This document shows, in pieces, positions 9,180 to 32,732 of a stretch of 64,000 nucleotides of DNA. A program made the translations under genes and the position numbers. The stretch is taken from positions 118,349 to 182,348 of the forward strand of contig CAMAWH010000002.1 of assembly GCA_945861635.1 (NCBI GenBank). Reading direction: 5' to 3'. Each line of letters starts with the position of its first letter. The first letter of the stretch is position 1. The notes beneath the pieces were generated by a model. That model ran no database searches, had not been told where the DNA came from, and saw only the letters and a program-made list of their open reading frames with translations. The stretch comes from Klebsiella pneumoniae (GTDB lineage Bacteria; Myxococcota_A; UBA796; SXON01).

Positions 9180-10448
9180 CTAATGAACGCCCTTCTTCGG
9201 CCGCAGCGGCTTCCCTTGCTCCACATGCTCGTTCCATGTCGCGGGTGCGAATCCGTTGTTCGCCTCTTCCATCGTGATGCATCCCGGCACCGGGCACACG
9301 ATTTGACAGAGGTTGCACCCGACACATTCCGATTCGATGATGAACGGCACGCCGCCCCCCTCCGTCGGTTTGATGCACTGGTGCGCACCATCCTCGCAAG
9401 CGACCGCACACCGATTGCAGCCGATGCACGTGGACGCATCGATCTTCGCGATGGTTTCGTAGTTCAGATCGAGATTTCCCCACTCCGAAAAGGAGGGGAT
9501 GGCCTTCCCAACCATCTGATCGAGGTTTTCGAACTGGTGGTCCACCATGTACTGGGTCAGCCCCTCGATCATGTCCTCGACGATACGGTAGCCGTGAAGC
9601 ATGACCGCCGTGCAGACCTGCACCGACGACGATCCGAGCAGAATGAATTCGACAGCGTCTCGCCAGTTGGAGATCCCGCCGATGCCGGAGATGGGGAGCC
9701 GGAAGTCCGGCGAGCGCGCGAGTTCGGCGGTCATGTACATGGCGATGGGCTTGACGGCAGGACCGCAATAGCCGCCGTTCGTAGAGAGCGAGCCAACGCG
9801 CGGATTGAGGACCATTCGGTCGATATCGACCGAAATAATGGACTTGATCGTGTTGATCAACGAGACGCCATGCGCGCCGCCCTTCTGCGCGGCCAAGCCG
9901 TGCGGGAGAATGTTCGACACGTTCGGCGTGAGCTTGACCAGCACCGGAATCGTCGAATATTCGACCGCCCAGCCCGTGATCCGCTCATTGACGAGCGGCT
10001 CCTGACCGACGGCGCTCCCCATGCCACGCTCGCACATGCCGTGCGGACACCCGAAATTCAGCTCCAAACCGTCCGCGCCGGCGTCGATGGAGCGCTTGAT
10101 GAGGTCTTTCCACTCTTCCTTCGTTTCCACCATCAGGGACGCGATGATGGCGTGCTTCGGATACCGCTTCTTCACCTCCGCGATCTCGCGGAAGTTGATC
10201 TCGAGCGATCGGTCCGTGATCAACTCGATGTTGTTGAAACCGACGGGCTCCAACCCGGCGTTCTTGTGCGCGCCGAACCGACTGGACACATTTTGGATCG
10301 GCGTGCCCAGTGTTTTCCACACGGCGCCGCCCCATCCGGCGTCAAAAGCGCGCATCACCTGATCGCCCGAGTTGGCGGGCGGAGCGCTGGCAAGCCAGAA
10401 CGGATTTGGCGAGGTGATACCCCCGCAGTTCGTCGTCAAATCAGGCAT
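9180..10448 (-). CDS. preA: NAD-dependent dihydropyrimidine dehydrogenase subunit PreA
   Basis: Full-length similarity by eye to PreA; NFGCPHGMCERGMG and two ferredoxin motifs CIGCNRCAVAC / CVGCNLCQIVC. Confidence 0.93.
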   Translation of the reverse strand: MPDLTTNCGGITSPNPFWLASAPPANSGDQVMRAFDAGWGGAVWKTLGTPIQNVSSRFGAHKNAGLEPVGFNNIELITDRSLEINFREIAEVKKRYPKHAIIASLMVETKEEWKDLIKRSIDAGADGLELNFGCPHGMCERGMGSAVGQEPLVNERITGWAVEYSTIPVLVKLTPNVSNILPHGLAAQKGGAHGVSLINTIKSIISVDIDRMVLNPRVGSLSTNGGYCGPAVKPIAMYMTAELARSPDFRLPISGIGGISNWRDAVEFILLGSSSVQVCTAVMLHGYRIVEDMIEGLTQYMVDHQFENLDQMVGKAIPSFSEWGNLDLNYETIAKIDASTCIGCNRCAVACEDGAHQCIKPTEGGGVPFIIESECVGCNLCQIVCPVPGCITMEEANNGFAPATWNEHVEQGKPLRPKKGVH

Positions 10449-11718
10449 GGGCGCCCCCGGTGAGGTGCTGGTGAATCGAACGTGCGGCGCGCTGACCTTC
10501 GGCGACCGCGTTGACAACTTCCTTTCCGCCATTCGACAGGTCTCCCCCCGCGAACCAGCCCGCGCGCGTTGTCGCCCCGTGCGGGTCCACGACCACCGTT
10601 CCATCGCGCACGGCAACGCCGCTCGCCACGAGACTCTCCCCAAGTTTCCCCTGACCAATCGCGATCAGCACCAGGTCGGCGGTCACGATGCGTTCACCAT
10701 CGGCCGTCGTCACGCGCACCCCCGCGACTTCCTTCTCCCCCACAAATCCCGTCGGCGTCGCGCCCCAAATGGCGCGGGCACCCTGCACCTTCGCCGCTTT
10801 CCACTCATGTTTGTAGCCGCTCATCTTCGCTTCGGCGCCTCGGTAGACCAACGTCACGTTCGGGACGCCGAGGCCGATCAACTCGCGCACGCAATCGACG
10901 GCCGTATTTCCACCCCCGAGAACCGCGGCGCTGCGAACACTCGAAAGGTCGACGGTCCCCAGTTTGAACCGTTCGATGTAGTCGACCGCGCCGAATATTC
11001 CCCCCTTCTCGCTGCCCGGGAGTTTGCGGTCGGGCCCCAACCCCAGCCCGAGGAATACGGCGTCATGCGCTTTCCCCACGTCATCCCACGAGAGGTCCTT
11101 GCCGATCTCCACTCCCGTTTTGACCTCGATCCCGCCGATCCCCATCACCCAATTCAATTCCGCCAGCGCGTCATCCGCGCGGAGCTTGTACGGCGCGACG
11201 CCCGTGACGTTCAACCCCCCGGGAATCTGCGCTTTCTCGTAAATTGTGACCGCATGCCCGAACCTGCGCAGCTCGTGCGCCGCCGCGATCGACGCGGGCC
11301 CGGCGCCCACGAGGCCGACTGATTTTCCGGTATCCGCGCCCGCCGAAAAGAAGCGCCACCCATCCTCCAGCGCGCGGTCCGTCGAATACCTCTGCAACCG
11401 ACCGATCTGGATCGGCGGGATGTCGAGCGCGTTGTACACACAATCCCCGACGCACAGCACCTCTACCGGACATACCCGCGCGCACGACATTCCAAGGATG
11501 TTCGAGGTGAAAATGGTGCGAGCCGACCCTTTCACGTTGTCGGTGGCGATCTTCCGGATGAACTCGGGAATGTTGATGCTGGTCGGACAGGCGCGGACGC
11601 ACGGGGCGTCGAAACAATACAAACAACGCTGCGCTTCGGCGATGGCCTGCGCGGACGTGTACGCCGACTTGTAGTCAACGAACGCCGCCTCGGCACGGGC
11701 TTCGGGGAGCTTCCACAT
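10441..11718 (-). CDS. preT: Dihydropyrimidine dehydrogenase subunit PreT / FAD-NAD(P) oxidoreductase
   Basis: CLYCFDAPCVRACPTSINIPEFI, GLVGAGPASIAAA, LGGGNTAVDC; overlaps preA by 8 nt. Confidence 0.92.
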   Translation of the reverse strand: MWKLPEARAEAAFVDYKSAYTSAQAIAEAQRCLYCFDAPCVRACPTSINIPEFIRKIATDNVKGSARTIFTSNILGMSCARVCPVEVLCVGDCVYNALDIPPIQIGRLQRYSTDRALEDGWRFFSAGADTGKSVGLVGAGPASIAAAHELRRFGHAVTIYEKAQIPGGLNVTGVAPYKLRADDALAELNWVMGIGGIEVKTGVEIGKDLSWDDVGKAHDAVFLGLGLGPDRKLPGSEKGGIFGAVDYIERFKLGTVDLSSVRSAAVLGGGNTAVDCVRELIGLGVPNVTLVYRGAEAKMSGYKHEWKAAKVQGARAIWGATPTGFVGEKEVAGVRVTTADGERIVTADLVLIAIGQGKLGESLVASGVAVRDGTVVVDPHGATTRAGWFAGGDLSNGGKEVVNAVAEGQRAARSIHQHLTGGAHA

Positions 11719-13035: not shown

Positions 13036-14589
13036 ATGCACGACCCCACGCTCGCAACCGAAGCTCTGGCCGATCTCCCCGCAGACATCGCGGACAGCCC
13101 GCTGTTCAACGCGGACCTGGCACCTGTGCCCGCGCACCGACGCAACTGGACGACGTACAACTTCGCGGCGCTGTGGATCTCGATGGCGCATTGCATCCCC
13201 ACCTACATGCTGGCGGGTGGCCTCATCGCCAGCGGCATGAACTGGTGGCAGGCGCTGCTCACGATTGGCCTAGGAAACATCATCGTCCTTGCGCCGATCC
13301 TCCTCAATGCCCACCCCGGCACGAAGTACGGCATCCCCTTCCCCGTGCTCGCACGGGCATCGTTCGGCACGACCGGTGCAAACATTCCCGCCATTCTGCG
13401 CGCCATCGTGGCGTGCGGCTGGTTTGGCATCCAAACCTACATCGGGGGGGAAGCCGTCCGCACGTTCATCGAAGCGATGTGGCCGGGGTTTGCGGCGATC
13501 GGTGGAGGATGGCGCTTTCTCGGCCTTTCCACGCCCAGTGGCATCACGTTTTTCATTTTCTGGGCGCTCAATATCTTTATTATTTTCCGTGGGATGAACG
13601 CGGTTCGCGTCTTCGAGAATTGGGCAGCGCCGCTGGTGCTGATCATGGCCGCCGCGCTGATGTTCTGGGCAGTCAACCGCGCGGGCGGCGTCGGACCGCT
13701 CCTGACCCGCGAATCCAGCTTCCCGACCTTCGGCGCGTTCTGGAAGGTGTTCATCCCTTCACTGACGGGAATGATCGGCTTCTGGGCTACGCTCTCCCTG
13801 AACATCCCCGATTTCACGCGGTTTGGAAAGGGGCAGCGCGAGCAGATGCTGGGTCAAACCCTGGGCTTGCCCACCACCATGATCGTGTTCTCCGCGATGG
13901 GGATCGTGATCACCTCGGCCAGTTCGGCGATCTTGCACGGCGTTCCGGTAGACAAGCTCTGGGACCCGGTCTTTATCCTTTCCCAGCTCACGTCGAGCAC
14001 CGCACCGGCGGGGCTCACGGAGCCGCTGATTGCCTCGTCCGGCATGCGAATCATCGTCGCAATCGTGGCGCTGCTTGGCGTCGCAATTGCCACCGTGTCG
14101 GTGAACATCGCCGCCAACGTCGTCAGCCCGGCCAACGACTTCGCCAACCTCGCGCCCCGCTACATCTCGTTCAAAACCGGCGGCCTCATCACCGGGATCG
14201 TCGGCATCCTGATGTGCCCGTGGCTGCTTCTCTCCAGCGCCGGCGCCTACATCTTCACATGGTTGATCGGGTATTCTGCGCTCCTCGGCCCCATCGCCGG
14301 CATCATGGTGGCGGACTACTGGATGCACCGGAAACAGGAGTTGGACGTCGCGGAGCTCTACCGACCCAACGGGAAGTACGCGGGCACGAATTGGGTTGCC
14401 GTACGGGCGTTGGTCATCGGTATTCTCCCTAATGTTCCTGGCTTCCTCAAGGCGGCCGGCATCCGCGAAGGTGCGCCCGACTTCTTCGACGAAATCTACG
14501 TGTACGCCTGGTTCGTCGGCTTCTTCCTCGCCGGGCTCGACTACATGGCGGGGACCCAGTGGGAGAGGCGACGCGGCAAATCTTCATAG
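13036..14589 (+). CDS. NCS1 family nucleobase:cation symporter (uracil/hydantoin/allantoin type)
   Basis: 517 aa, about 12 TM; NWTTYNFAALWISMAHCIPTY, GIPFPVLARASFGTTGAN, adjacent to preAT. Confidence 0.92.
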   Translation: MHDPTLATEALADLPADIADSPLFNADLAPVPAHRRNWTTYNFAALWISMAHCIPTYMLAGGLIASGMNWWQALLTIGLGNIIVLAPILLNAHPGTKYGIPFPVLARASFGTTGANIPAILRAIVACGWFGIQTYIGGEAVRTFIEAMWPGFAAIGGGWRFLGLSTPSGITFFIFWALNIFIIFRGMNAVRVFENWAAPLVLIMAAALMFWAVNRAGGVGPLLTRESSFPTFGAFWKVFIPSLTGMIGFWATLSLNIPDFTRFGKGQREQMLGQTLGLPTTMIVFSAMGIVITSASSAILHGVPVDKLWDPVFILSQLTSSTAPAGLTEPLIASSGMRIIVAIVALLGVAIATVSVNIAANVVSPANDFANLAPRYISFKTGGLITGIVGILMCPWLLLSSAGAYIFTWLIGYSALLGPIAGIMVADYWMHRKQELDVAELYRPNGKYAGTNWVAVRALVIGILPNVPGFLKAAGIREGAPDFFDEIYVYAWFVGFFLAGLDYMAGTQWERRRGKSS

Positions 14590-14593
14590 CGGG

Positions 14594-15331
14594 CTACCGA
14601 CAGTAGACGCTCAGATTCAGCTGATCGTTCCCCCTGCCGAGAATGGCGCTCGGAATGCGGCAGGTGGGCTTTTCCGGGTGCGAAACGATGACCTCGAACG
14701 GCTCGAGTTCCACATTGGCGAACAGGATGTCGTACACGCCGTTGGTAACGTTGCCGAACACGAACGTACCATCGAGATCCTGGGTGATCGCTGCCTCATA
14801 CGGCGCCGTGATGTCGATCGTGGCACCCGCCAGGTCGTGCCCCGTGAGGTCGTCCAGCGCGTCCACGTCAACCCAACTGAGCCCGGGGACGGGCTCGACT
14901 CCGAGGAACGCCATCGGAAAATTCTCCGTGTCCCATCCGCCCATTCCGATGCGGTACGGGAAATTTTCGCTTCCCTCCGTCACCGGGTCGAACACACACC
15001 GGTTGGGGACAAAGCCGTCGAGCGCCTGATCGATCGCGACCCACTCGCGATCTTCCACGGAAAGACGCCAGTTTCCGGCGACGTCGGAGGTCGCGACCGG
15101 GGCGGAGGCCCCGCACAACGTGACGCCCACACCCTCCAGCGGCGCATCGCCCTCTCCGCCGTACACCAAGCCCAGAATCTCTCGTTGTTCCTCACTGCGA
15201 GCGATCCCGGAGGGACACAGCAGCGCCGGGTCAATGTCAACCCCGCTGTCGTCCGACCCGGTGTCGTACGCGCTCCGCGCACACGCGACGAGCGATCCCC
15301 AAAAAACCGCTATCAATGCGCCTCTCCCCAT
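14594..15331 (-). CDS. Hypothetical lipoprotein
   Basis: 245 aa; MGRGALIAVFWGSLVACARS lipobox; overlaps next operon gene. Confidence 0.65.
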   Translation of the reverse strand: MGRGALIAVFWGSLVACARSAYDTGSDDSGVDIDPALLCPSGIARSEEQREILGLVYGGEGDAPLEGVGVTLCGASAPVATSDVAGNWRLSVEDREWVAIDQALDGFVPNRCVFDPVTEGSENFPYRIGMGGWDTENFPMAFLGVEPVPGLSWVDVDALDDLTGHDLAGATIDITAPYEAAITQDLDGTFVFGNVTNGVYDILFANVELEPFEVIVSHPEKPTCRIPSAILGRGNDQLNLSVYCR

Positions 15332-16293
15332 GCTCCCGCGTAGCAGCCCAACGGCTCTTCCAGCGGCGCGGCCATCACCAGCGCCGTACCCATCTCATCT
15401 GGAAAGCCAAGCGTTTCATCCGTTTCGTTATACCAGTCGCACGTCGTGCGGAAGACCTCTCCCGCCTTCACGAGAAAGGTACCGGGATCCCACACATCCA
15501 TGCGCGGGTAGACGCGGTAATCGTCCGTCCAGTCCGTGACCTCGTGGATGCGCTCGGATGTGTCGTCGTGGAGGTAGTCAACTGCGAACGAGGTGCCCCG
15601 CCCGTGCATGTGACTGCTCACGACGAGAATCTCAAGATCCATCGGCCACGCGCAATCCCATGGCAGCGAGTACCGGCCGGGCGGAATGCCAAACTCACCG
15701 GTGTCCAATTGCACGGCGGACACCCAACGGGTCACCGTGGAGATGTCCGTAAAGCCAAGGTTGATCGCGCTGTTCACGAGAATGTCGCGATCGGTCGTAT
15801 TCACGTAGTGCGTATCGATGACCCAACGCCGGTTCGCGGGCAACTTTACGGCGTAGCCGGGTGGGAGCGCCATGAAATTCCCCTGCTCATTCCCTGCATA
15901 TGGCGCGCCACCCGGCATGTCGAAGGGCGGGACACCATCGACGAACGGCTTGTAGGAGAGCATTTCCTCACCACCCGGGCACTCCGCCACCGTGCCGTCG
16001 GGCGGCGCGTCGTCCGGTGCCATCTTGACCTGATTGTGGTGATTGTACGGCATGACCTGATACCCGACGAGACCGGTTACGGCGACATCTTCCGCACCGA
16101 AACTGCCATAATAGCAGAACAGGCGTTCGGAATGCGCCGGGACCAAAAGGTCCGGGGTCGCCAATTGCACACCCTCCCCCGTCGGCAGCGGGTAGTCCTC
16201 CGTGAGATCGAGGGGACCGGTGTCCGAGACGATGTCTCTCGGCGCATCTCCCGATGCACATCCGACGCCCAACGCGATTGGGTAGAGGATCAT
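15313..16293 (-). CDS. Copper type II ascorbate-dependent monooxygenase (PHM)-like lipoprotein
   Basis: MILYPIALGVGCASG lipobox; NHHN, DTHY.N, SSHMHGRG, FPDEMG arranged as in PHM/DBM copper sites. Confidence 0.7.
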   Translation of the reverse strand: MILYPIALGVGCASGDAPRDIVSDTGPLDLTEDYPLPTGEGVQLATPDLLVPAHSERLFCYYGSFGAEDVAVTGLVGYQVMPYNHHNQVKMAPDDAPPDGTVAECPGGEEMLSYKPFVDGVPPFDMPGGAPYAGNEQGNFMALPPGYAVKLPANRRWVIDTHYVNTTDRDILVNSAINLGFTDISTVTRWVSAVQLDTGEFGIPPGRYSLPWDCAWPMDLEILVVSSHMHGRGTSFAVDYLHDDTSERIHEVTDWTDDYRVYPRMDVWDPGTFLVKAGEVFRTTCDWYNETDETLGFPDEMGTALVMAAPLEEPLGCYAGAWGEAH

Positions 16294-16682
16294 TGCGCGT
16301 CCAGGTCCATGAAGAATCCGGTACCGCCGGAGCCTCCTCCGAACGCGATGTCGAGCGTCGCGCCTTCCGGCGGAACGGCCACATCCTCCGCAATCAACGT
16401 CACATAGCCGTGCCCCGAGTGGTCCTCCGGCACATGCCACACTCCTTCTGTGCCCTCCGACGGAAAGTCAAACCCCTCGGGCGCACGCGGCCACCACAGG
16501 CGCACCGCGCCGCCTTGCGGATCCGTGACCTCAATGGAAATCTCCAGGTCCTCACCCGGCGTGATGGGAATGGCCTCCGGCAACGAGCGGGTGCCAAACG
16601 ACTCGATCGTTTTTTGCCCGTTCACCTTGGCGATAACGGGCGCAGTGTTCGTACACGCGGCGAGCACGAGGGGCAAAATCAT
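16290..16682 (-). CDS. Hypothetical small lipoprotein
   Basis: MILPLVLAACTN lipobox; 4-nt overlaps with both neighbours. Confidence 0.65.
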   Translation of the reverse strand: MILPLVLAACTNTAPVIAKVNGQKTIESFGTRSLPEAIPITPGEDLEISIEVTDPQGGAVRLWWPRAPEGFDFPSEGTEGVWHVPEDHSGHGYVTLIAEDVAVPPEGATLDIAFGGGSGGTGFFMDLDAQ

Positions 16683-17524
16683 TTCACCTCCACTGTGCTA
16701 ACCGCCCACGTCATGTTCGTCGGGGAATCGGCAAGGTCGTCGGAGCCTAGTTCGGACGCGCTCACCGCCACGACCACACGGTAGCGGCCCGCATCTTCGG
16801 GCAACTGCCAGCGATTGGTCGTCGTGCTCACGCCGCCTTCCACACCATGCGTAATCGTGCGCCCCGTGTCGAGGAGCACGCCATCATCGACGTACCAGGA
16901 CCAGCTCCCTGCTTCCGCGCTGACGTCGATCGACGCTTCCACGGTCACGATTCCATCCACCACATCCGGCACCGTAAGGGTCAGCGTCCGTTCGCGAAGC
17001 GACGCCCCGGCGTCCTTACGCACCCCCGTGTCCTCGACCGTTCCCGATTGCAGTTCGGCGACGAACGTGCCACGTCCAACGTCGGGGTCCACGCCGGCTT
17101 CAAGCAGCACCGGCACCGAGGACCGCCCCCCCTCACAGCCGGTATCGCACGTCCAGTCGGCAACCGGCACGTGCCACACGGTCGGAATGCCCTCTCCGAT
17201 CAGGCTTACATCCACGTCATCCGTGAAACACTGGAGATCGTAGATATTGACTGGCACACTCGCCGATAGTCCGCAGGTCTTCCACGTCGCCGTCGTCACC
17301 TCACCCGCCGGGGAGAGGACCAGGGCTTCGAGGTCAACGTCGGTGCCGGCCGCAAATGTGAGCGGAGACGAGGCGATGCCAATCACGCGCGTGCGATCCA
17401 ACGTGTAGTCCATCGCCTGAAAGTACGCCTGCGAAGGGCCAAGGTTCAGGCTGCACCCAAGCGTCGCGAGCGCAACGGCGCCACCCACCCCGTGCAGCCG
17501 CACGACCGGAATCCGGCGCGCCAT
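16679..17524 (-). CDS. Hypothetical lipoprotein
   Basis: MARRIPVVRLHGVGGAVALATLGCSLN lipobox; start overlaps TonB receptor stop. Confidence 0.65.
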   Translation of the reverse strand: MARRIPVVRLHGVGGAVALATLGCSLNLGPSQAYFQAMDYTLDRTRVIGIASSPLTFAAGTDVDLEALVLSPAGEVTTATWKTCGLSASVPVNIYDLQCFTDDVDVSLIGEGIPTVWHVPVADWTCDTGCEGGRSSVPVLLEAGVDPDVGRGTFVAELQSGTVEDTGVRKDAGASLRERTLTLTVPDVVDGIVTVEASIDVSAEAGSWSWYVDDGVLLDTGRTITHGVEGGVSTTTNRWQLPEDAGRYRVVVAVSASELGSDDLADSPTNMTWAVSTVEVK

Positions 17525-19881
17525 CAGAACTTCACCTCGACCCCCAAAGAGGGCAGGATAGGGAGGCTGATCACGCTGATCATCTTGGAATAGTTGGCAT
17601 TGTACGTGGCGAGAAATGGATTGTTGGCCCAATAGGCATTGTAGAGGTCGAGATACAGTCCCCAATCGCCACGACGCCGCTGCCACGTTTTCTGCACGCG
17701 CACGTCGAGTTGGTGGAAGACCGGAAACCGCGCCGAGTTGGGATCACCGGGAAACGCCTGCCACGAGTCATTTCCAGCGTCGTAGGCGGGAAGTAGCGGT
17801 GTGTACGGCGAGCCGCTCGTGACCCGAAATCGCGCGGATACGTCCCAGCGCTTGGGTGCGTGGTAGGCGCCGAGGAGCGTGAGCGACACCGGCTGATCGT
17901 AGTCGCCCGGAAACACCTCTGTCCCGTAGATTCGTTCGCTCCGGCCGAGGGTGAACGCAACCCAGCCCCAGAACGGCCCTTGTGGGCGGTAGCGGATCAA
18001 CGTTTCCCAACCATAGGATCGACCTTCTACCTTATGAAATACGGGGTATGTCTCCGTCGTCGCATACCCTCCGCGGTTCACGACGCGCACCTCCATGTCG
18101 CGCACGACGAGGTCCTGCATCAGGCTACCGTACAGGGAAGTATCCACCGCGATCGGTCCGAAACTCCATTCCGCGCCCAACGTTGCCTGCCAGCTCGACA
18201 TCAGGGGCAGCTCGGGATTGCCGATGCCCTGCGCATACCGGTCGGCGGGGGGCATTTGCGTAAAGCGCCCAACGAAACCCTTCAATGTAAAATCTTCCCG
18301 GAGCGCGTGCCGCACGGTCAGGCGGGGCTCCGGCTCCACATAGACATCCCCGTTGAAGGCGTAGAATTGACCGCGCAAACCCGGCGTGATGCGCGTGCCG
18401 CCGAGCGTGCGCTCCCACTCGCCGAACAATCCAACCGACGCTTGAACGTCCTCCGTCGTCGGAATGTCCTCGCCATGGGAGGCCGCTGCGTTGGTGAAAT
18501 CTTCTGCTTGGACCGGCGTGATCGTACCCTGCCCCCCCAACACGACGCGTGACACCGGCGAGAGTTGCAACGTGTCCTCCCGTCGGGCAATCGTGCTCCA
18601 CCCACGAACACGCCCGTTGTACGGACCTTCTTGCGTGGTGAACAGGTCACCGAGGAGGTTCTGTTGCGACTGCGGGCCCGTCGCCACCCAGGTATCGGCG
18701 TCGTGATCGCCCCCGTCATCCTGCCAGCGCAGGCGCAGACGCCCGAAACCAGCGTCGATGTAGTGGGTCGGATCGTACGGAAGGTCCCATGCCTCCCATT
18801 CGTAGGGGTCGGGCTCCCCGTCATCGTCCCCGTCGTAACGGCCGGGCGCCAGGACGATCGCGTCATTGCTGCCGAGGAGCGTCGCTGACAGCGTGCGGCC
18901 CGGCGCCGGCCGGTTTTCCACGACCACGAGCGCATCCCAGTAGGCCGGGTAGATCGACGGCGCCTCGCTGAAATCGCCGCCCTGCGTCATCCCATAGATG
19001 CCGCTCCCGGTTGCGATGATGCCGCCGATCCAACTGTAGCGAGCAGCTGCCCGCACGGTCCACCTCTCGCTTGAGAATTCGAGAGCTGCGCCGCCGTCAA
19101 AGAGGTTGACGTCCACCAGGCCGCGCCGCCCCAGCACGTGTTCACGATTCGTACGAACGTTCACGGCCGCTTGCGTCACCTCGCCAAAGCGAGAGGGCAT
19201 TCCACCGGCGTAGAACTCGACATCGTCAATGAATGCGGGATTGATGACGCTTTTTCCGATGATCTGATGGAACAGGTATGGCACCGGCATCTCGTCGATG
19301 TAGAAGCCGGTGTTCAGTCCTTCCGCGCCGCGAACCACGATGTTGCCTTCGAGCGCGGCGGGGCGGGCAACGCCGGGAAGCGAGTGCAACGCGCGCACGG
19401 GATCTCCGAAACTTCCCGGGATCTCCTTCAGCTCTTCGGCCGTGAAGACCTGCCGGGACACCTCGTGCCGCTCTCGCTCGCCTTCGACGATCACCTCCTC
19501 TCCCATGGGGGGCGGGCGGAGCTTGTAGACAACGTCCATGCGCCCGCCGGGACGCACCTCCTCAACCACAATGAGCAGGTCGTACGCGGCGTCGGCGATG
19601 CGGATCGTGTGCTCGCCGGGGGGGAGGGGGAGCGTGAATCGCCCGTTGGCGTCGGTGGTCGTCGTGCCGCCGCCCTCGACGTGGACCAGGGCACCCTCGA
19701 CCGGGAGCGCCGACTCCAGCGCGATCACGCGGCCGACGAGCTGGCCGGTTTGCGCGGGGGCCTCCGCGGGGACGCCGGCTTCGGTGGGCACGCCCGGGTC
19801 CGGCTCCATCGCCCATCCGGCGTTCAACAGGGCGAGGACGAGCACGTGGGGACCATACCCCGCGCCGTGGGGACAGCACAT
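17524..19881 (-). CDS. TonB-dependent receptor with N-terminal carboxypeptidase-regulatory-like domain
   Basis: VEGALVHVEGGGTTTTDANGRFTLPLPPGEH, EEVIVEGERERHEVSRQ, plug PGVARPAALEGNIVVRGAEGLNTGFYIDEMPVPYLFH, barrel C-terminus. Confidence 0.9.
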   Translation of the reverse strand: MCCPHGAGYGPHVLVLALLNAGWAMEPDPGVPTEAGVPAEAPAQTGQLVGRVIALESALPVEGALVHVEGGGTTTTDANGRFTLPLPPGEHTIRIADAAYDLLIVVEEVRPGGRMDVVYKLRPPPMGEEVIVEGERERHEVSRQVFTAEELKEIPGSFGDPVRALHSLPGVARPAALEGNIVVRGAEGLNTGFYIDEMPVPYLFHQIIGKSVINPAFIDDVEFYAGGMPSRFGEVTQAAVNVRTNREHVLGRRGLVDVNLFDGGAALEFSSERWTVRAAARYSWIGGIIATGSGIYGMTQGGDFSEAPSIYPAYWDALVVVENRPAPGRTLSATLLGSNDAIVLAPGRYDGDDDGEPDPYEWEAWDLPYDPTHYIDAGFGRLRLRWQDDGGDHDADTWVATGPQSQQNLLGDLFTTQEGPYNGRVRGWSTIARREDTLQLSPVSRVVLGGQGTITPVQAEDFTNAAASHGEDIPTTEDVQASVGLFGEWERTLGGTRITPGLRGQFYAFNGDVYVEPEPRLTVRHALREDFTLKGFVGRFTQMPPADRYAQGIGNPELPLMSSWQATLGAEWSFGPIAVDTSLYGSLMQDLVVRDMEVRVVNRGGYATTETYPVFHKVEGRSYGWETLIRYRPQGPFWGWVAFTLGRSERIYGTEVFPGDYDQPVSLTLLGAYHAPKRWDVSARFRVTSGSPYTPLLPAYDAGNDSWQAFPGDPNSARFPVFHQLDVRVQKTWQRRRGDWGLYLDLYNAYWANNPFLATYNANYSKMISVISLPILPSLGVEVKF

Positions 19882-19920: not shown

Positions 19921-21129
19921 CTACCTCACCTTGCGCACGTTCAGAAAGGTGAGATTCGTGCCTTCGATGTCGAACGCGACGATCAGGAGGTTGTTCGACT
20001 CCCAGTAGACGACGTGCGGACGCTGGCCCATCGTGATTGGGTCGCCGATGTCGTCCAACAAGCGCTCCATCGCATCAGGCGTCGTCGTCGTCGGGCGACC
20101 GTAGGTATACAGCCACAAGCGCCCTGATTCACCGCTCGCCCCGGTTTCGACGCCCTTGATGACCATCGCGCGGGCTGAGTCGATCCATACCTCCGTCACC
20201 ATCGAATAGGCATGTCCTGTTCGGCTCACCAATGTCTCCACAGAAGCGGCGGTGGAATCGAGGTCCGCGTCGAGGACGATCAGCTTGATATCGCTGTCCT
20301 GGCTGACCGCCGTGAACTCGGGAGCCAACAAACGGTAGGACGAAAACCGGTAGCTCGGCCCAGGTGCGCCCCCGTATTTCCCGCGCCGCGTGACCGAGGC
20401 ACCCCCATAGTGCGCCAGTTCAGGCGCCGAACTCGTTCCGTTAACCACCACCTTCGTCCCGACCGCGCCATCGCGATCGACGGGGATCCACAGCGTGCCT
20501 TGATCGTAGAAGGGGTCATCGGTCGTCGCTGGCGGCGGGCCCGAGCGAAAAGCCGGCGCACTGTCAACGACAACGTACACGCCGCCATCGGGTCCTTCGA
20601 CCATACACAGATCGTTCGTCGGATTCAACAGATTCGGTGGGCTGCGCGAATCCCACTCTGGATCCTGTACGACCTTGCGCCATTCATCCGTCCACTCACC
20701 AGACTTGTCAAGGCTGAACTTGATCAAGAGCACACCGCACCCGGCTGCATCGTATACCAACGACACCGCAATCCAATGGTAGCCGTGGGCGTAGATGTGC
20801 CAGTGATCAGCCAGGCTGTCGTAGGACTCCTCCGGTGTACCCGCGCTGTTCGTGAAGTCTTGCTTGAGATCAGCCGCCGTCACAAGGTCGATTGGGTCTT
20901 CTACTCTCGTCACGCCCGTGACCGTCGGCGTGCACCTCCCCACGTGGACGTCATTCCCGCTTTCCGACGAATACGCGAGCCCGTACGCATCGGAATCCTC
21001 GCCATCCTCGATCAGGAACAACCAATTCTTGCCGCTTCCGAAGGCGTAGGTCGTGGGCGGACCCAACGAGATCGCGGATGTGGAAAACCCAATCGGGCCC
21101 AGTGCCGACGACTTCATTCCACGCTCCAT
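19921..21129 (-). CDS. Hypothetical protein
   Basis: 402 aa ORF with protein-like composition; no clear family. Confidence 0.6.
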   Translation of the reverse strand: MERGMKSSALGPIGFSTSAISLGPPTTYAFGSGKNWLFLIEDGEDSDAYGLAYSSESGNDVHVGRCTPTVTGVTRVEDPIDLVTAADLKQDFTNSAGTPEESYDSLADHWHIYAHGYHWIAVSLVYDAAGCGVLLIKFSLDKSGEWTDEWRKVVQDPEWDSRSPPNLLNPTNDLCMVEGPDGGVYVVVDSAPAFRSGPPPATTDDPFYDQGTLWIPVDRDGAVGTKVVVNGTSSAPELAHYGGASVTRRGKYGGAPGPSYRFSSYRLLAPEFTAVSQDSDIKLIVLDADLDSTAASVETLVSRTGHAYSMVTEVWIDSARAMVIKGVETGASGESGRLWLYTYGRPTTTTPDAMERLLDDIGDPITMGQRPHVVYWESNNLLIVAFDIEGTNLTFLNVRKVR

Positions 21130-21132
21130 GGC

Positions 21133-22638
21133 TCAGCGCCAGAGTAGATCACCGGGAACGACATATACGTCCTCCGCGCCCGCGGACGAGCCGAGCGTTT
21201 CCTCGTGGGTCAAAATTTCGTTCAGGCCGTCGCCGTCGAGGTCGGTGACGGCCAAATCGGCCGCGCGGAGAATCGACATCGAAAGCTTCAGTCCTGCCTC
21301 GGCGACCGGCAGGACACCGGCCACCGGACCCCGGTAGAGCCATACGTTGCGGTCTAGGTACCCGTCAACCTCGTCGAACACATCGATCTCCAGGGCGAAG
21401 TCATCGTAAGCGTCCCCATTGACTTCAACGTCGGCCTCGGAAATGCTCAGAAACCGCATGGGAGGCTCACAGACCATCGTCGCGAAGGCGTCATCGAGTC
21501 CCAACTCACCATCCGCAGCCACCTCCATGGCCGCCACGCCGTTGTCCAAGGGTGAGCCGTGGAGAAGGATGTCGGCCAGTCCGTCTCCGTTCAGGTCACC
21601 GGCCTCGGAAACCCGGTGACCGCCGCTGTCACCGTTCACGACGACGTCAGCAGCATCTAGATCGATGGTACCGCGCAACGGCCCGCGAAAGATGCGCACG
21701 TCGGGCAAGGCGTTCACCGCAAGATCGTCGAGCCCGTCGCCATCGGTGTCGCCCAGAACATGGACGCTGTACGCTAACCATGCATCCTCCGGCCCCCCCG
21801 CGACCCGAGCGTCTTCCTCACCCGCGGCGACGGGTCCGGCGCGAGCGCCGTCGACCACCATCGCAAAGGTACCCGCACACTCACAACCCTCGTACACGAT
21901 GTCCGCCACGCCATCTCCCGTTAAATCCCCGGAGTCCAGAAAATGGGCGTAGGATGGATGCGACTCGATGTGGAGGTACGGATCTGCAGCACCAAACCTG
22001 TAGGTATCCACGTAGCCGCGGCCATCCTCATACGCGAAGGCGAGGTCTCCGTCCGATCCGACCGCCGTCACCGCGCGGGCGTAGCCACGCGGCGTCACCA
22101 CCCACGGCGCTTCGTCCAGAAACCGCGGGCCCACGACGGCCCCGAACCACGCGTAGACGTGGTACGGGCTCGTGAATGCCACGCCTCCCCCCGGGAGCGC
22201 GTCAAGCTGGAAAACCGCGAATCCATCCATCGCCCTCAGCACGCCCGCCATCGCCTCGACATCGATCGCCGGACACGGCGTCAGATCGGCGCCATCGCAG
22301 TCCTGATCCATGCCGTCGCTGCAAATTTCCGCCACCGGCCCATCGACGCCATCACAATCTTGATCCAATCCGTCATTGCAGATCTCGGCGGTCGCTGTGC
22401 GATCCGCGCCATTGCAGTCTTGATCGATGCCGTCGTCGCAAATCTCCGCGGCGGCCATACGGTCTGCGCCATCGCAATCCTGATCCACGCGGTCATCGCA
22501 AATCTCGGCGGTGGCAACGCATCTCGTCGTGTCCACGTCGCTATCCGCGTCCGGTCCGTCCACAGTCGAAGCCACTGTGGCGTCCGGGTCGCAGCCAACT
22601 CCCACAAGCAGGAGCAGAAGCGCGGACGCGAATCTCAC
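21133..22638 (-). CDS. Lipoprotein with MopE-type repeats and FG-GAP/VCBS-like repeats
   Basis: GTG start at 22638 preceded by AGGGG; RFASALLLLLVGVGC lipobox; four AEICDDGxDQDCDGAD repeats; DLDGDGLNEIL / DLTGDGVADIVYE blocks. The ORF track extends to 22689. Confidence 0.8.
   Translation of the reverse strand: MRFASALLLLLVGVGCDPDATVASTVDGPDADSDVDTTRCVATAEICDDRVDQDCDGADRMAAAEICDDGIDQDCNGADRTATAEICNDGLDQDCDGVDGPVAEICSDGMDQDCDGADLTPCPAIDVEAMAGVLRAMDGFAVFQLDALPGGGVAFTSPYHVYAWFGAVVGPRFLDEAPWVVTPRGYARAVTAVGSDGDLAFAYEDGRGYVDTYRFGAADPYLHIESHPSYAHFLDSGDLTGDGVADIVYEGCECAGTFAMVVDGARAGPVAAGEEDARVAGGPEDAWLAYSVHVLGDTDGDGLDDLAVNALPDVRIFRGPLRGTIDLDAADVVVNGDSGGHRVSEAGDLNGDGLADILLHGSPLDNGVAAMEVAADGELGLDDAFATMVCEPPMRFLSISEADVEVNGDAYDDFALEIDVFDEVDGYLDRNVWLYRGPVAGVLPVAEAGLKLSMSILRAADLAVTDLDGDGLNEILTHEETLGSSAGAEDVYVVPGDLLWR
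22282..22509 (-). repeat. Four tandem ~60-bp units encoding AEICDDGxDQDCDGADR
   Basis: Direct reading of protein repeat AEICDDRVDQDCDGADRMAA / AEICDDGIDQDCNGADRTAT / AEICNDGLDQDCDGVDGPV / AEICSDGMDQDCDGAD. Confidence 0.85.
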
Positions 22639-25036
22639 GATGGCACCCCTATGTGCTGATGAACTGCACTTCGCCGCCCACGACCGCAAATGCCAACGGG
22701 GTGCCCGACGTGAGCGAAATCAACCAGCCCGGGCGAATGAACTGCTTGGCGCCAGACGCGATGGCCGTTTCGCCAACCGGATCTCCGGCGACGGCGGCCA
22801 GTACCTCGACAACACCGCTTACTACAACGGCGGCGCGCTCTATTCGTACTACGCCGTCGATACCGTCGATATCACCGATGCCGCGTTCGACAGCAACGTG
22901 GCGACCTACGGGTACGGCGGCGCGGTCTACGCCGGGGCCTACTCAGACCTCGTGATCTCCGACTCCACCTTCGACGCCAACTCTTCCTACTACTACGGTG
23001 GCGGAATCTACAGCTACTACCTTTCAACGTCGGTTATCTCCGGTTCCAGCTTCACGTCGAACAACGCCGTCTACGGATACGGCGGCGCGATCATGTCCTA
23101 CCAATACTACACCGGATACGACGACCTCACGATCTCCGACAGCCGCTTCGAAGACAACACAGCGTACTACGGCGGGGGCGCCGTCGCGTCGTTTCAGGAC
23201 CGCAATTTTCAGCTGTCCGACAGCGTTTTCAACCGAAACTCTGCCACCTACAACAACGGCGGTGCCGTCTACACCTATTACACATCGACGCGCGAGGTTG
23301 CGAACAACTCGTTCTGTGCCAACGCGGCCCCCTATGGCGGGGCGATCTACAGCTACTACAACTACGGCACGAGCGATGTTTGGACCAACAATATCTTCCA
23401 GGAAAACTCTGCCACCTATAGCGGTGGTGCCGTCGAACACGTGTACGACTACTACACGGATGTGACGAACAACACCTACCTTGGAAACACGGCGGGAACC
23501 ACGGGCGGGAGCGTCTACCTCGCGGCGTCCTATCAGGACTTCACCAACAATATCGTCGCGCACACCGGGAACGGCACAGGAATGTACGCGGCCGACACCT
23601 ATCAGGCTTCGTACGGCACCTCGATGTACAACGACTGGTACGCAAACCTGGCCTCCGACGCGGGAGGTTCGCTGACCGCCTCCGATATCGCGGAGCCCGG
23701 CACCATCTACGACGACCCACTGTTCACGACCTGGTCCGCCGATGGCGATTGTGACAACGACGACCTCGTACTTCAGGCCGCGAGCACGCTCATCGACGCC
23801 GGCGATCCTGCGATTACGGACGCCGACGGCTCGCGATCCGACATCGGCGCCTACGGCGGCCCCGGGAGTGACGTGAACGATCTCGACGGAGATGGCAGCT
23901 ACGGCACGCACGACTGTGACGATGGCGACCCAACCGCCTACCCTGGCGCCACAGAAATCGCGTTCGACGGCATCGATCAAGACTGTGATGGCAGCGACCT
24001 CACCGACGTCGATGGCGATGGCTACGACGCGTCCGTTGTGGGAGGGAGCGATTGCGACGACACGGATGCAACCGTTTACCCCGGTGCGACGGACACGCTT
24101 TACGACGGTGTGGACAGCGATTGTGACGGCGCCAGTGACTACGATGCCGATGGGGATGGCTTCGATTCGAGCGCGTACGGCGGGGACGACTGCAATGACG
24201 CCGACGCGACCATCAACCCGGCGGCGGTCGAGACCTACTACGACGGGGTCGATCAGGACTGCGATGGCGCCAGTGACTACGATGCGGACATCGACGGCTT
24301 CGACTCCGGCTCGTACGGCGGCGATGACTGTGATGATTCCAATGCGAGCGTGTACCCCGGCGCTTACGATGACCCGTACGACGGCCTGATCACGGACTGC
24401 AACAACGCGAGCGAGGGGGATGCCGACGGGGATGGCTACACCTCCACGGTCGTCGGTGGGGATGACTGCGATGACGCCAACGCCACCGTCAACCCCGGTG
24501 CAACGGAGGCGTATTACGACGGCATCGACGCCGATTGTGACGGCGGCAGCGACTACGACGCCGACGGAGATGGCTACGATTCCGATGGCTACGGCGGTAC
24601 CGACTGTGATGACGCCAAGTCGGCGGTCAACCCGATTGCAGTAGAGGTCTGGTACGACGGTGTGGACGACGACTGTGATGGCAACGATCAGGATCAGGAC
24701 AAAGACGGCACCGGCGTCGAAGACGACTGCGACGACACCGATCCGACCATCCAGAGCTGCGATACCGGCGACACGGATACCGGCGACACCGACGACAGCG
24801 GCGACACGGACGACACCGACACTGACACGGACACCGACACCGACACCGGGGACGTTGACTCCGGCGACCCCGACGACACCGACACCGACACCGACGACAT
24901 CGTCGGCATCTCGGACACGGGTGGCAAGGTTGCCGGCGGCGGCGGTTGTGGCTGCGCGACCACCCCGCCGAGCGGCGTCGCGCTGAGCGCCGGTTGGTTC
25001 TTGCTGGCGATCGCGGCGGCGCGCCGGCGGCGGTAA
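22511..25036 (+). CDS. Tyrosine-rich right-handed beta-helix surface protein with MopE repeats and MYXO-CTERM-like sorting tail; authentic 5' end uncertain, credible coding begins near 22790
   Basis: GGAVYSYY rungs, seven 46-aa MopE units, GGGCGCATTPPSGVALSAGWFLLAIAAARRRR tail; the N-terminal part of the ORF is not protein-like. Confidence 0.72.
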   Translation: MATHLVVSTSLSASGPSTVEATVASGSQPTPTSRSRSADANLTMAPLCADELHFAAHDRKCQRGARRERNQPARANELLGARRDGRFANRISGDGGQYLDNTAYYNGGALYSYYAVDTVDITDAAFDSNVATYGYGGAVYAGAYSDLVISDSTFDANSSYYYGGGIYSYYLSTSVISGSSFTSNNAVYGYGGAIMSYQYYTGYDDLTISDSRFEDNTAYYGGGAVASFQDRNFQLSDSVFNRNSATYNNGGAVYTYYTSTREVANNSFCANAAPYGGAIYSYYNYGTSDVWTNNIFQENSATYSGGAVEHVYDYYTDVTNNTYLGNTAGTTGGSVYLAASYQDFTNNIVAHTGNGTGMYAADTYQASYGTSMYNDWYANLASDAGGSLTASDIAEPGTIYDDPLFTTWSADGDCDNDDLVLQAASTLIDAGDPAITDADGSRSDIGAYGGPGSDVNDLDGDGSYGTHDCDDGDPTAYPGATEIAFDGIDQDCDGSDLTDVDGDGYDASVVGGSDCDDTDATVYPGATDTLYDGVDSDCDGASDYDADGDGFDSSAYGGDDCNDADATINPAAVETYYDGVDQDCDGASDYDADIDGFDSGSYGGDDCDDSNASVYPGAYDDPYDGLITDCNNASEGDADGDGYTSTVVGGDDCDDANATVNPGATEAYYDGIDADCDGGSDYDADGDGYDSDGYGGTDCDDAKSAVNPIAVEVWYDGVDDDCDGNDQDQDKDGTGVEDDCDDTDPTIQSCDTGDTDTGDTDDSGDTDDTDTDTDTDTDTGDVDSGDPDDTDTDTDDIVGISDTGGKVAGGGGCGCATTPPSGVALSAGWFLLAIAAARRRR
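23880..24760 (+). repeat. About seven 138-bp (46-aa) MopE-type repeats
   Basis: ADGDGFDSSAYGGDDCNDADATINPAAVETYYDGVDQDCDGASDYD and variants, last unit partial. Confidence 0.88.
24765..24900 (+). repeat. GACACCGAC-type low-complexity repeat encoding an Asp/Thr linker
   Basis: TGDTDTGDTDDSGDTDDTDTDTDTDTDTGDVDSGDPDDTDTDTDD read directly. Confidence 0.85.
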
Positions 25037-26284: not shown

Positions 26285-27586
26285 CTACGTCGCGCCGACC
26301 GCCGCAAGCGCCTTGTCGAAGGCGGCGAGGCCGTGATCGATCTCGCTCGTTTCGATGAGCATCGGCGGCGCGATGCGGAAGATGTTGCCCCAGCGTCCGC
26401 CCTTGCCGAGGAGCACCCCTTCTTTGCGGCTGGCTTCAAAGATGCGCCCGGTGATCGCCGCATCCGGCGTGCGATCCCCCGCGACCTCGTCCTCGACCAT
26501 TTCCACGGCCTGCATCAGCCCGAGGCCCCGCACCTGACCGATCTTCCGCGGATACTTCCTCTGCAATTCTTCGAGACCCGCGCGCAGGTGCGCCCCCAGA
26601 CGCGCCGAGCGCGCCGGAATGTCCTCGCGTTTCATGATGTCGAGCGTTGCAATCGCGGCGGCCATCGCCACGGGATTTCCACCGAAGGTGGAGATGGTTT
26701 GGCGGGGAATGGACTTCGCGATCTCGGGCGTGGTCATGCAATTCGCTGCAGGCATGCCATTGGCAATCCCCTTTGCCATCGTGACAATGTCCGGCGTGAC
26801 GCCGAAATGCTCGAAGCCCCACCAGTGGGTGCCGGAACGGCCAAATCCCGTCTGCACCTCGTCCGCGATGAAGACGCCACCGTACTTGCGGACGATTCCC
26901 ACCGCGACCTCAAAATACTCCTTCGGTGGCACCACAAATCCGCCCACGCCCTGCACGGGCTCAGCGAGAAAGCCCGCGATCTGCCCCGTCGTCGTGTACT
27001 GGATGAGGCTTTCAATATCCTGCGCGCACGCCAGGTCGCACGACGGATATTTCAGCTTGAACGGGCATCGGTAGCAATCCGGCTGAACGGCATGTTTGAT
27101 CCCCGCAATCTGCTGCGGGATGACGCGCCAATTGGCGTGCCCCATCAGGGACTGTGCCAGCATCGAACGCCCGCTATACCCGTTTCGCAGCGCGATGATC
27201 TCGCTCTTGCCGGTGTGCGTCATGGCGAGCATGACCGCCATCTCATCCGCCTCCGTGCCACTCGCGACGGGGAAGCTCTGCGAAATGCCTCCCGGCATGA
27301 TCCCGGCGAGCGACTCCGCGAGTTGGACGACCGGCGCCGTCGGATACAGCGTGGAAATATGCGAGAGGCGATCGATCTGCACCTTGATCGCCGTGTTTAC
27401 CTCTTCATTTGCATGGGAGAGCGACACCGTGAGGATGCCGCCGAACAAGTCGAGATATCCCTTTCCATCCGCGTCATACACCCACACGCCCTTCGCGTGG
27501 TCCACGGCAAGGGACTCGGCGTAGTAGTTCATTACTGCCGGCATCAGGAACTGTTTGTGCTTCGCACGCATTTCGTCGCTGGTCAT
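26285..27586 (-). CDS. Class III aminotransferase (AGXT2 / beta-alanine aminotransferase-like)
   Basis: DEVQTGFGRSGTHWWGFEHFGVTPDIVTMAKGIANGMP; STFGGNPVAMAAA. Confidence 0.9.
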   Translation of the reverse strand: MTSDEMRAKHKQFLMPAVMNYYAESLAVDHAKGVWVYDADGKGYLDLFGGILTVSLSHANEEVNTAIKVQIDRLSHISTLYPTAPVVQLAESLAGIMPGGISQSFPVASGTEADEMAVMLAMTHTGKSEIIALRNGYSGRSMLAQSLMGHANWRVIPQQIAGIKHAVQPDCYRCPFKLKYPSCDLACAQDIESLIQYTTTGQIAGFLAEPVQGVGGFVVPPKEYFEVAVGIVRKYGGVFIADEVQTGFGRSGTHWWGFEHFGVTPDIVTMAKGIANGMPAANCMTTPEIAKSIPRQTISTFGGNPVAMAAAIATLDIMKREDIPARSARLGAHLRAGLEELQRKYPRKIGQVRGLGLMQAVEMVEDEVAGDRTPDAAITGRIFEASRKEGVLLGKGGRWGNIFRIAPPMLIETSEIDHGLAAFDKALAAVGAT

Positions 27587-28867: not shown

Positions 28868-30262
28868 ATGTCGATCCTCATCAAGAATGGCCGCGTCGTA
28901 ACGGCAAGTGACGACTACATTGCCGACGTATACATCGAAGGTGAAAGCGTCCGAATGATCGGGAAGAACCTACCGGTTCACCCGGATCGAACGTTCGACG
29001 CTACGGGGAAATTGGTCATTCCGGGCGGGATCGACCCGCACACCCACATGGACATGCCGTTTGGCGGTACAACCAGCGCGGACGATTTCGATACCGGCAC
29101 GCGCGCCGCCGCGTTTGGCGGCACCACGACGATCATCGATTTTGCGATTCAGTCGAAAGGCGAAAGCACCATCAAGGGTCTGGATGCGTGGCACCAGAAG
29201 GCCAGCGGAAAAGCCCATATCGACTACGCTTTCCACATGATTGTGACGGACATGCCCCACGAACGGCTGCCGGAAATGCAGCGTTTGTGCGACGAAGGCG
29301 TGACGTCCTACAAGTTGTTCATGGCGTATCCGGGCGTGCTCTACGTCGATGACGGCGTGCTGTACCGCACGTTTCGGCAAGCGGGGCTCAACGGAACCCG
29401 CATTTGCATGCACGCCGAAAATGGCATTGTCATCGATGAAATCATCCGCGAGGCCGTGGCGGACGGGAAGATCGAACCGAAGTACCATGCGCTCACCCGC
29501 CCCACGCGCATGGAGGCGGAAGGCGTGCATCGCGCCATTGCGATTGCGGAAGTTGCCAACGTGCCACTCTATATCGTGCACCTTTCGTCTGCCGACGCGC
29601 TGGAGCAGGTCAAGCTCGGTCGCATGCGCGGCGTGGATGTTCAGGCGGAGACGTGTCCGCAATATTTGTTTCTCGATTCTACGTGGTATGACCGTCCGAA
29701 CTTTGAGGGCGCCAAATGGGTCATGACGCCCGCCCTGCGCGAGAAATGGAATCAGGAAGTGCTCTGGCAGGGCCTGAAATTCGGCCACGTCGCCAGCGTC
29801 GCGACCGACCATTGTCCCTTCTGTTTCAGCGGGCAAAAGGAGTTGGGCCGGGAGTCATTCACGAAGATTCCCAACGGCGCACCCGGTGTGGAAAATCGAA
29901 TGTCACTGATGTTCAACGGCGGCGTCGTCGGCGGCCGCATCTCCCTGAACCGCTTTGTCGAGCTCACCTCGACGTCGGCCGCCAAGACGTTTGGCTTGTT
30001 TCCCAAGAAAGGAACGATCGCCGTCGGAAGTGACGCGGATATCGTCATTTTTGACCCCAATCGTAAAGAAACAATTTCGCTTCACAATCCGATTACCCAC
30101 CACATGCGTACGGACTACAGCGCGTACGAAGGGCACGAAGTGCAGGGTTGGTCCGAGGTTGTGATTTCTCGTGGCCGCGTCATCTGCAATAATGGTACGC
30201 AAGAAACGTCGGGAGGCGGCAATTTCGTGAAGCGTGCCCGGGTGGGCGAATTGCTGCGTTGA
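28868..30262 (+). CDS. Dihydropyrimidinase
   Basis: MSILIKNGRVVTASDDYIADVYIEGE; IPGGIDPHTHMDMPFGG metal site; VTSYKLFMAYPG; TDHCPF. Confidence 0.94.
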   Translation: MSILIKNGRVVTASDDYIADVYIEGESVRMIGKNLPVHPDRTFDATGKLVIPGGIDPHTHMDMPFGGTTSADDFDTGTRAAAFGGTTTIIDFAIQSKGESTIKGLDAWHQKASGKAHIDYAFHMIVTDMPHERLPEMQRLCDEGVTSYKLFMAYPGVLYVDDGVLYRTFRQAGLNGTRICMHAENGIVIDEIIREAVADGKIEPKYHALTRPTRMEAEGVHRAIAIAEVANVPLYIVHLSSADALEQVKLGRMRGVDVQAETCPQYLFLDSTWYDRPNFEGAKWVMTPALREKWNQEVLWQGLKFGHVASVATDHCPFCFSGQKELGRESFTKIPNGAPGVENRMSLMFNGGVVGGRISLNRFVELTSTSAAKTFGLFPKKGTIAVGSDADIVIFDPNRKETISLHNPITHHMRTDYSAYEGHEVQGWSEVVISRGRVICNNGTQETSGGGNFVKRARVGELLR

Positions 30263-31852: not shown

Positions 31853-32722
31853 CTACGGAAGGTCCTTGACCATGTCCCCGTAGGTATCGGGCCGCCGATC
31901 GCGGTAGAACTGCCACGTCTGGCGGACGGTCTCGATCATCTCAAGGTCACAGTCCGCGATGACCAGTTCGTCTTCCGTTTCACTCGCCGTCGCAATGAAC
32001 TCGCCACGGGGATTGCAAATGTAGCTGGTGCCGTAGAAGCGACCGATTCCCCACGGCGCTTCCGTGCCCGTGCGATTGGATGCGGCCATGAAATACCCAT
32101 TGGCTACCGCATGGGCGGGCTGCTCCAGCTTCCAGAGATATTGCGAGAGTCCGGCGACCGTCGCGCTGGGGTTGAATACAATTTCCGCGCCATGAAGGCC
32201 GAGAAGTCGTGCGCCTTCCGGAAAGTGCCGATCATAGCAAATATAGACGCCGATACGGGCGTACTTGGTCTGAAACGTCGGGTAGCCAAGGTTGCCCGGC
32301 TTGAAGAAATACTTTTCCCAGAAACCGGACGTCTGAGGAATATGGTTCTTCCGATAAATGCCCAGCGTTGATCCATCCGCGTCGAGGACCACCGCCGTGT
32401 TGTAGTAGACGCCGGCCATGGCCTCTTCGTAGATGGGGACGACCATCGCCATGTCGTACTTGCGGCAGTACGGGCGAAGCCGCTCGACCGTCGGCCCGTC
32501 GATGCGCTCGGCGGCCTTGTACCACCGGCGATCCTGACCGGGGCAGAAATACGGCCCGTTGAAGATCTCCTGCAGGCCAAGAATCTGCACGCCAGATTCC
32601 CCGGCCTTGTCGATGAAGGGGAGGTGATGTTGGAACATCGCTTCCTGGATTTCCGCGACCGGCCGCGTTTCGTCATTGATGGGGTTTGCTGCCTGAATCA
32701 ATCCGACTTTCACGTTGCGCAT
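31853..32722 (-). CDS. Beta-ureidopropionase / N-carbamoyl-beta-alanine amidohydrolase (nitrilase superfamily)
   Basis: E-K-C triad blocks LQEIFNGPYFC, YRKNHIPQ, GVYICYDRHFPEGAR. Confidence 0.92.
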   Translation of the reverse strand: MRNVKVGLIQAANPINDETRPVAEIQEAMFQHHLPFIDKAGESGVQILGLQEIFNGPYFCPGQDRRWYKAAERIDGPTVERLRPYCRKYDMAMVVPIYEEAMAGVYYNTAVVLDADGSTLGIYRKNHIPQTSGFWEKYFFKPGNLGYPTFQTKYARIGVYICYDRHFPEGARLLGLHGAEIVFNPSATVAGLSQYLWKLEQPAHAVANGYFMAASNRTGTEAPWGIGRFYGTSYICNPRGEFIATASETEDELVIADCDLEMIETVRQTWQFYRDRRPDTYGDMVKDLP

Positions 32723-32732
32723 AGCGTTCCTT

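Follow-up and report, generated by a model that had tools for sequence, protein, structure and literature searches.

Introduction

Do the five overlapping genes at positions 14594 to 19881 of the window form one conserved surface system built around a copper enzyme, or were they assembled from separate parts? The window is the whole 64,000-nucleotide stretch of contig CAMAWH010000002.1 that was analysed, part of a 5.6 Mb draft genome of 128 contigs that is 88% complete; judged from gene content, its bearer is an uncultured, Myxococcota-like bacterium. An earlier note, made from the letters alone, had described the genes, here called G1 to G5, as a single undescribed system in which a TonB receptor is coupled to four lipoproteins, one of them resembling the copper monooxygenase PHM. 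Our analysis does not bear out a single system. The operon is the union of two conserved modules, so far seen once: a receptor with two lipoproteins (G1-G2-G3), which recurs without a copper protein, and a copper monooxygenase-fold lipoprotein with a partner (G4-G5), which recurs without the receptor. We favour the explanation, at a probability of roughly 0.45, that the two modules are translated together in this genome and that G4 may be an envelope dicopper hydroxylase of a non-peptidylglycine substrate, the product or ligand of which would be taken up by G1.

The operon and its products

Five open reading frames on the minus strand run from 19881 down to 14594, and a small gene finder predicted exactly these five.

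17524..19881, minus strand: G1, TonB-dependent outer-membrane transporter, 785 residues, CarboxypepD_reg and Plug domains (Pfam)
16679..17524, minus strand: G2, lipoprotein, 281 residues, immunoglobulin-like (Ig-like) beta-sandwich folds, conserved partner of G1 (neighbourhood, AlphaFold2 and Foldseek)
16290..16682, minus strand: G3, lipoprotein, 130 residues, probably one Ig-like domain (by eye), recurs beside G1-G2
15313..16293, minus strand: G4, lipoprotein with PHM/DBH-type dicopper monooxygenase fold, 326 residues (profile, fold and ligands)
14594..15331, minus strand: G5, lipoprotein, 245 residues, carboxypeptidase-regulatory-like beta-sandwich, partner of the G4 subclade (Pfam and co-occurrence)

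The gene limits and overlaps of 1 to 19 nucleotides that the earlier note had reported were confirmed. The overlap is 1 nucleotide between G1 and G2 (TGATG), 4 between G2 and G3 and between G3 and G4 (ATGA in both) and 19 between G4 and G5. These overlaps suggest that the five genes lie on one transcript. Overlapping neighbours occur in 10 of the 26 co-directional pairs of the window, so a single overlap is ordinary here; G1 to G5 are the longest run, and with four overlaps one after another their translation is likely to be coupled. Promoter and terminator scans of the operon gave no signal above chance. For the four putative lipoproteins, lipobox-like N-termini were read by eye in G2 (LATLGC), G3 (LVLAAC), G4 (LGVGC) and G5 (LVAC), and these starts recur in most relatives in the alignments. 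Very short lipoprotein-like signals lacking a basic n-region (e.g. MILPLVLAAC) are common in this lineage, in the window and at related loci, the 16290-16682 product being one case.

G4 as a member of the PHM/DBH superfamily

As a single sequence, G4 gave no meaningful match in Pfam, NCBIfam or PDB, and in particular none to the Pfam family PF03712 (Cu2_monoox_C). Three lines of evidence place it in the PHM/DBH copper type II monooxygenase superfamily. First, a profile of 44 G4 relatives matches rat PHM (E 3e-8) and DBH (E 2e-6), and in the profile-PHM alignment the HH, H, HxH and EM blocks, with all six copper ligands, are in register. The identities of the CuH and CuM site ligands in PHM and DBH were taken from published work (PMC6123673, PMC4846438). 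Secondly, the ligands (H85, H86, H162, H228, H230 and M301) do not vary in any of the 46 aligned sequences. E300, C60, C105, C214, C285, C317, N165 and N289 are also invariant, as is W255 within the G4 subclade. Third, the AlphaFold2 model of G4 has a predicted local distance difference test (pLDDT) score of 89, and its Foldseek PDB matches 1 to 31 are all PHM or DBH (E 2e-12 to 1e-8, probability 1.00, template modelling score (TM-score) 0.53-0.65 by query length), the next match standing at E 6e-5. The fold and the conserved ligands were thus computed directly, and because these three lines agree, membership as judged from sequence and model is well supported; the PHM-like character and ligand blocks first noticed in the 15313-16293 product are upheld. 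The fold match also speaks, indirectly, against the structural objection named in the note, that the His and Met residues might lie far apart.

G4 shares with PHM and DBH the two-domain beta-sandwich fold with HH + H and HxH + M ligands in register, and four of its cysteines (C60, C105, C214 and C285) line up with those of PHM. However, it is a bacterial lipoprotein of about 15% identity and lacks the DOMON and dimerisation domains. Of its aligned relatives, half (22 of 44; best E 8e-10) match PF03712, whereas the G4 of the window does not.

At least one copy of the G4 family was found in 33 of the 58 genomes searched (same family and order), and eight recognisable copies are present in the genome of the window itself. 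A single-sequence search of genome contigs with G4 gave no match; the corresponding search with the subclade alignment returned six records, taken as genomes already in the sample. Beyond its eight divergent copies, the same genome holds further PF03712 copper monooxygenase genes (G000:C2:197792, C22:61986 and C29:46074).

Departures in the active site

The residues concerned are located as follows.

16036..16041, minus strand: H85-H86 of G4, equivalent to the PHM CuH ligands H107 and H108; invariant and in register
15808..15816, minus strand: D160-x-H162 of G4; H162 is the third CuH ligand (PHM H172) and D160 replaces PHM Q170
15604..15612, minus strand: H228-M-H230 of G4, equivalent to the PHM CuM ligands H242 and H244; invariant
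15388..15393, minus strand: M301-G302 of G4; M301 is the CuM Met ligand, and G302 stands where a Cys is near-invariant

The motif blocks of G4 read YNHHN, DTHYVN, SSHMHGRG and FPDEMG. The note had set the last beside the DEMC of PHM. Its Met is indeed the invariant ligand, but the Gly is no ordinary variant: 45 of the 46 sequences read EMC, as does PHM, and G4 of the window alone reads EMG. A sequencing or assembly error in the codon concerned (GGT) is a possible source of the Gly. In PHM, the Cys directly after the Met ligand forms a disulfide, and Gly at 302 leaves C285 of G4 without its expected partner. Since the wider family keeps the Cys, its absence in G4 is a local loss and does not exclude the protein from the superfamily.

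A second departure lies two residues before H162, where all eight members of the G4 subclade carry Asp and 33 of the 36 other sequences carry Gln (PHM Gln170). In the tree, G4 falls in a group of eight that also holds L038, L039, L040, L041, L042, L043 and the own-genome copy L044 (support 100/99). With class-level rows added, this group keeps a support of 91/80 and is nested in a 12-member group (95/99), whose class-level members also carry the Asp. In addition, G4 reads HMHGRG where the motif around the CuM histidines is HMHEWG.

These three departures could mean that G4 keeps the PHM fold but is no working monooxygenase, serving instead as a copper-binding, structural or copper-buffering protein of the surface. 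The stranded C285, the Asp and the HMHGRG motif all fit this explanation. However, the six ligands, E300, N165 and N289 are invariant, with W255 held within the subclade. Asp160 is common to every subclade member, which points to an altered active site rather than to decay. A non-enzymatic G4 is considered unlikely.

The favoured explanation supposes an enzyme of another specificity than PHM. The residues of PHM that bind the glycine carboxylate of the substrate (R240, N316 and Y318) correspond to S226, T303 and L305 in G4, and these columns vary in the family. A peptidylglycine substrate is thus unlikely, and G4 is, from its sequence, most likely not peptidylglycine-specific.

The receptor module

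The 17524-19881 product had been called a TonB receptor, and this call stands. G1 matches CarboxypepD_reg (PF13620, E 1.9e-8) and Plug (PF07715, E 3.4e-7) above the Pfam cut-offs and aligns over its full length with 15 receptors; no match to the Pfam barrel model (PF00593) was found. The segment EEVIVEG before the plug resembles a TonB box by eye, whereas a simple pattern scan gave none.

Relatives of G1 at 34-48% identity form a clear group in two families of the order, f3 and f5. There the receptor is followed by G2 and, where the contig allows, mostly by G3, often with the same overlaps of 1-4 nucleotides. G2 lies directly or closely downstream of the receptor in relatives. Its AlphaFold2 model (pLDDT 77) matches mostly proteins with Ig-like beta-sandwich domains in Foldseek, at low TM-score. 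G3 has no Pfam match, and strong matches to it were found beside G1-G2 in nine genomes of the order including its own. At all the receptor-G2-G3 loci of f3 and f5 the copper gene is absent. Receptor, G2 and G3 are thus a conserved module, present in two further families of the order and unaccompanied there by a copper gene. In family f1, to which the genome of the window belongs (L167), a more distant receptor-G2 pair stands behind ExbB/ExbD/TonB-like genes identified by eye (L086-L090). Pairing of a transporter with a lipoprotein of this type is thus general in the lineage.

The note had offered copper or chalkophore acquisition as one possible role. A copper chelate would then enter through the receptor, with G4 dealing with copper at the surface. 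The copper ligands of G4 and a dedicated receptor would suit this, and a TonB-dependent transporter does serve in the uptake of methanobactin (PMC9601215). However, the receptor module is conserved at loci that have no G4-type copper protein, and no copper-uptake, chalkophore or methanobactin uptake or biosynthesis family was found among the Pfam or NCBIfam matches of the five proteins. Simpler explanations than copper import are therefore available. The scanned neighbour genes, which belong to pyrimidine catabolism or encode repeat proteins, give it no support either. It is the least probable of the explanations considered here.

Transport could also run outward. Oar of Myxococcus xanthus, which works outward for the protease PopC, has the CarboxypepD_reg + Plug architecture (PMC6434023), and G1 resembles it in its CarboxypepD_reg extension, its Plug and a long C-terminal part of barrel length. 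By analogy, G1 might export or display a protein, with the lipoproteins, G4 included, in a surface assembly; the presence of several beta-sandwich-type lipoproteins in a single operon would agree with this. However, G1 differs from Oar in being coupled to the lipoproteins G2 and G3 and in having no known protein cargo, no gene of the operon was identified as encoding a cargo, and architecture alone would not reveal the direction of transport. Outward transport is considered very unlikely.

SusC/SusD offers a works-like analogy only, that of a TonB-dependent transporter with a co-expressed lipoprotein. G1 was rejected as a SusC (TIGR04056 score 13.5 bits against a cut-off of 368), and the G2 model differs from SusD in resembling Ig-like proteins, with no SusD among the Foldseek matches listed.

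A second CarboxypepD_reg + Plug receptor (924 residues) is encoded in the window at 37787-41334, and its gene overlaps by 4 nucleotides that of a 258-residue lipoprotein without a family match. Such pairing of receptor and lipoprotein seems to be common in the lineage.

The G4-G5 module and the union of the two modules

G5 matches CarboxypepD_reg at E 1e-5, below the curated cut-off. Close relatives of G5 were found in five genomes (the genome of the window, G003, G011, G024 and G049), and every one of them also has a G4 subclade member; G035 alone has the subclade without G5. Among the 63 genomes of the order, the hypergeometric chance of this co-occurrence is about 9e-7 (6 / C(63,5), calculated by hand), a figure that ignores shared descent and is to be read with a few of the 63 genomes lying outside the looser-threshold G4 search. 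The two genes are adjacent in three cases, namely the window, L040 (same gene order) and L042 (order reversed, 4-nucleotide overlap), and lie apart in G003 and G024. In other families, no copper gene was found alongside distant G5-like proteins in the stretches read. G4 and G5 are thus a second module, co-occurring in five genomes and adjacent in three, and both modules were read directly from these comparisons.

The linkage of all five genes was searched for from each end, via G4, G5, G2, G1 and G3, and no second case was found. The note had named missing conservation of the five-gene linkage in relatives as grounds for refutation; by that yardstick the whole is refuted, although each half is conserved. 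The modules may be neighbours through a chance rearrangement, sharing a transcript and serving separate roles. This agrees with the absence of the linkage in the other genomes examined, where each module stands alone, and with the frequency of gene overlaps in the window. However, coupled translation is likely, given four overlaps in succession, and the contig of the nearest receptor relative (L075, 48%) breaks off some 100 nucleotides past G2, so that any linkage there is beyond view. As an account of the whole operon, chance adjacency is possible but doubtful; independent roles for the two modules are nearly as likely as a shared role in uptake.

Proposed function

In the favoured explanation, translation in common would join an Oar-class TonB-dependent transporter and its two cognate Ig-like-type lipoproteins (G1-G2-G3) to a lipid-anchored PHM/DBH-superfamily dicopper monooxygenase and its partner beta-sandwich lipoprotein (G4-G5). 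From its superfamily membership, G4 probably hydroxylates a C-H bond of a non-peptidylglycine substrate at the cell envelope, CuH (H85, H86, H162) supplying electrons and CuM (H228, H230, M301) carrying out the oxygen chemistry. The oxidised product or a released ligand would then be taken up by G1, which would be the simplest reason for shared translation; overlaps shared with a transporter suggest that a compound is oxidised or processed before it is taken up. We infer copper binding, catalysis, surface location and any substrate shared by the two modules. The more specific proposal that a surface-tethered dicopper monooxygenase with Asp at the PHM Gln170 position oxidises an extracellular substrate, which the coupled transporter then imports, is improbable when taken as a whole.

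Several points weigh against the favoured explanation. The lost Cys after the Met ligand and the Asp in place of PHM Gln170 could mean that the activity of G4 is altered or lost. Only a single draft genome shows the two modules united. The operon has no ExbB/ExbD/TonB genes for neighbours; look-alikes were recognised by eye elsewhere in the genome (L167). Lastly, no substrate, reductant or product is indicated for G4.

The main interest of the locus is a bacterial PHM/DBH branch that is partly detected by Pfam and has an altered active site. The paper on the DBH structure (PMC4846438) describes PHM, DBH and their kin as a small eukaryotic class, and no study of bacterial PHM-like enzymes was found in the literature searched. 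Here a lineage of uncultured bacteria carries up to eight divergent copies per genome, mostly lipoproteins with fully conserved copper ligands, and Pfam misses half of these copies. If active, they would be small bacterial models for electron transfer between two separated coppers, G4 would be a natural Gln170-to-Asp variant of the PHM-type site, and copper-dependent oxidation at the bacterial surface would be indicated.

Neighbouring genes and related loci

Genes resembling those of reductive pyrimidine breakdown lie on both sides of the operon (9180-11718, 13036-14589, 26285-27586, 28868-30262 and 31853-34190). They resemble PreA/PreT, an NCS1 permease, a class III aminotransferase, an amidohydrolase, a CN-hydrolase and an aldehyde dehydrogenase. 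A link between pyrimidine catabolism and the receptor is possible; at the remaining receptor-module loci, where few neighbours were scanned, no genes of this kind were recognised. At 19921-22689, at least 40 nucleotides upstream of G1, are two more minus-strand genes, one for a 398-residue protein without a family match and one for a protein with MopE-type metal-binding and FG-GAP repeats. These two genes could be on the same transcript as G1 to G5.

The closest relative of G4 (L038:1059-3180) adjoins a Rieske/VanA-type oxygenase and a PSCyt2 fragment, and a G5 relative in L091 (1111-4166) lies near PSD4/PSCyt3 and DUF1552 genes. At loci of other G4 clades, the copper gene has as a neighbour the gene of a small lipoprotein that carries a C-x4-CH motif and weakly resembles PSCyt1; the loci of the window subclade lack this gene. 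For example, in L048:8363-11192, L055:5981-7820, L056:9512-11345, L054:9049-10831 and L160:6142-8270, the copper gene stands between the gene of a lipoprotein of about 160 residues and of no recognised family and that of the C-x4-CH lipoprotein. These loci look like a conserved set of copper enzyme and cytochrome-like protein, in which the C-x4-CH lipoprotein could be an electron donor. Genes resembling nuo were also seen near the copper-protein loci in L048, L055 and L056.

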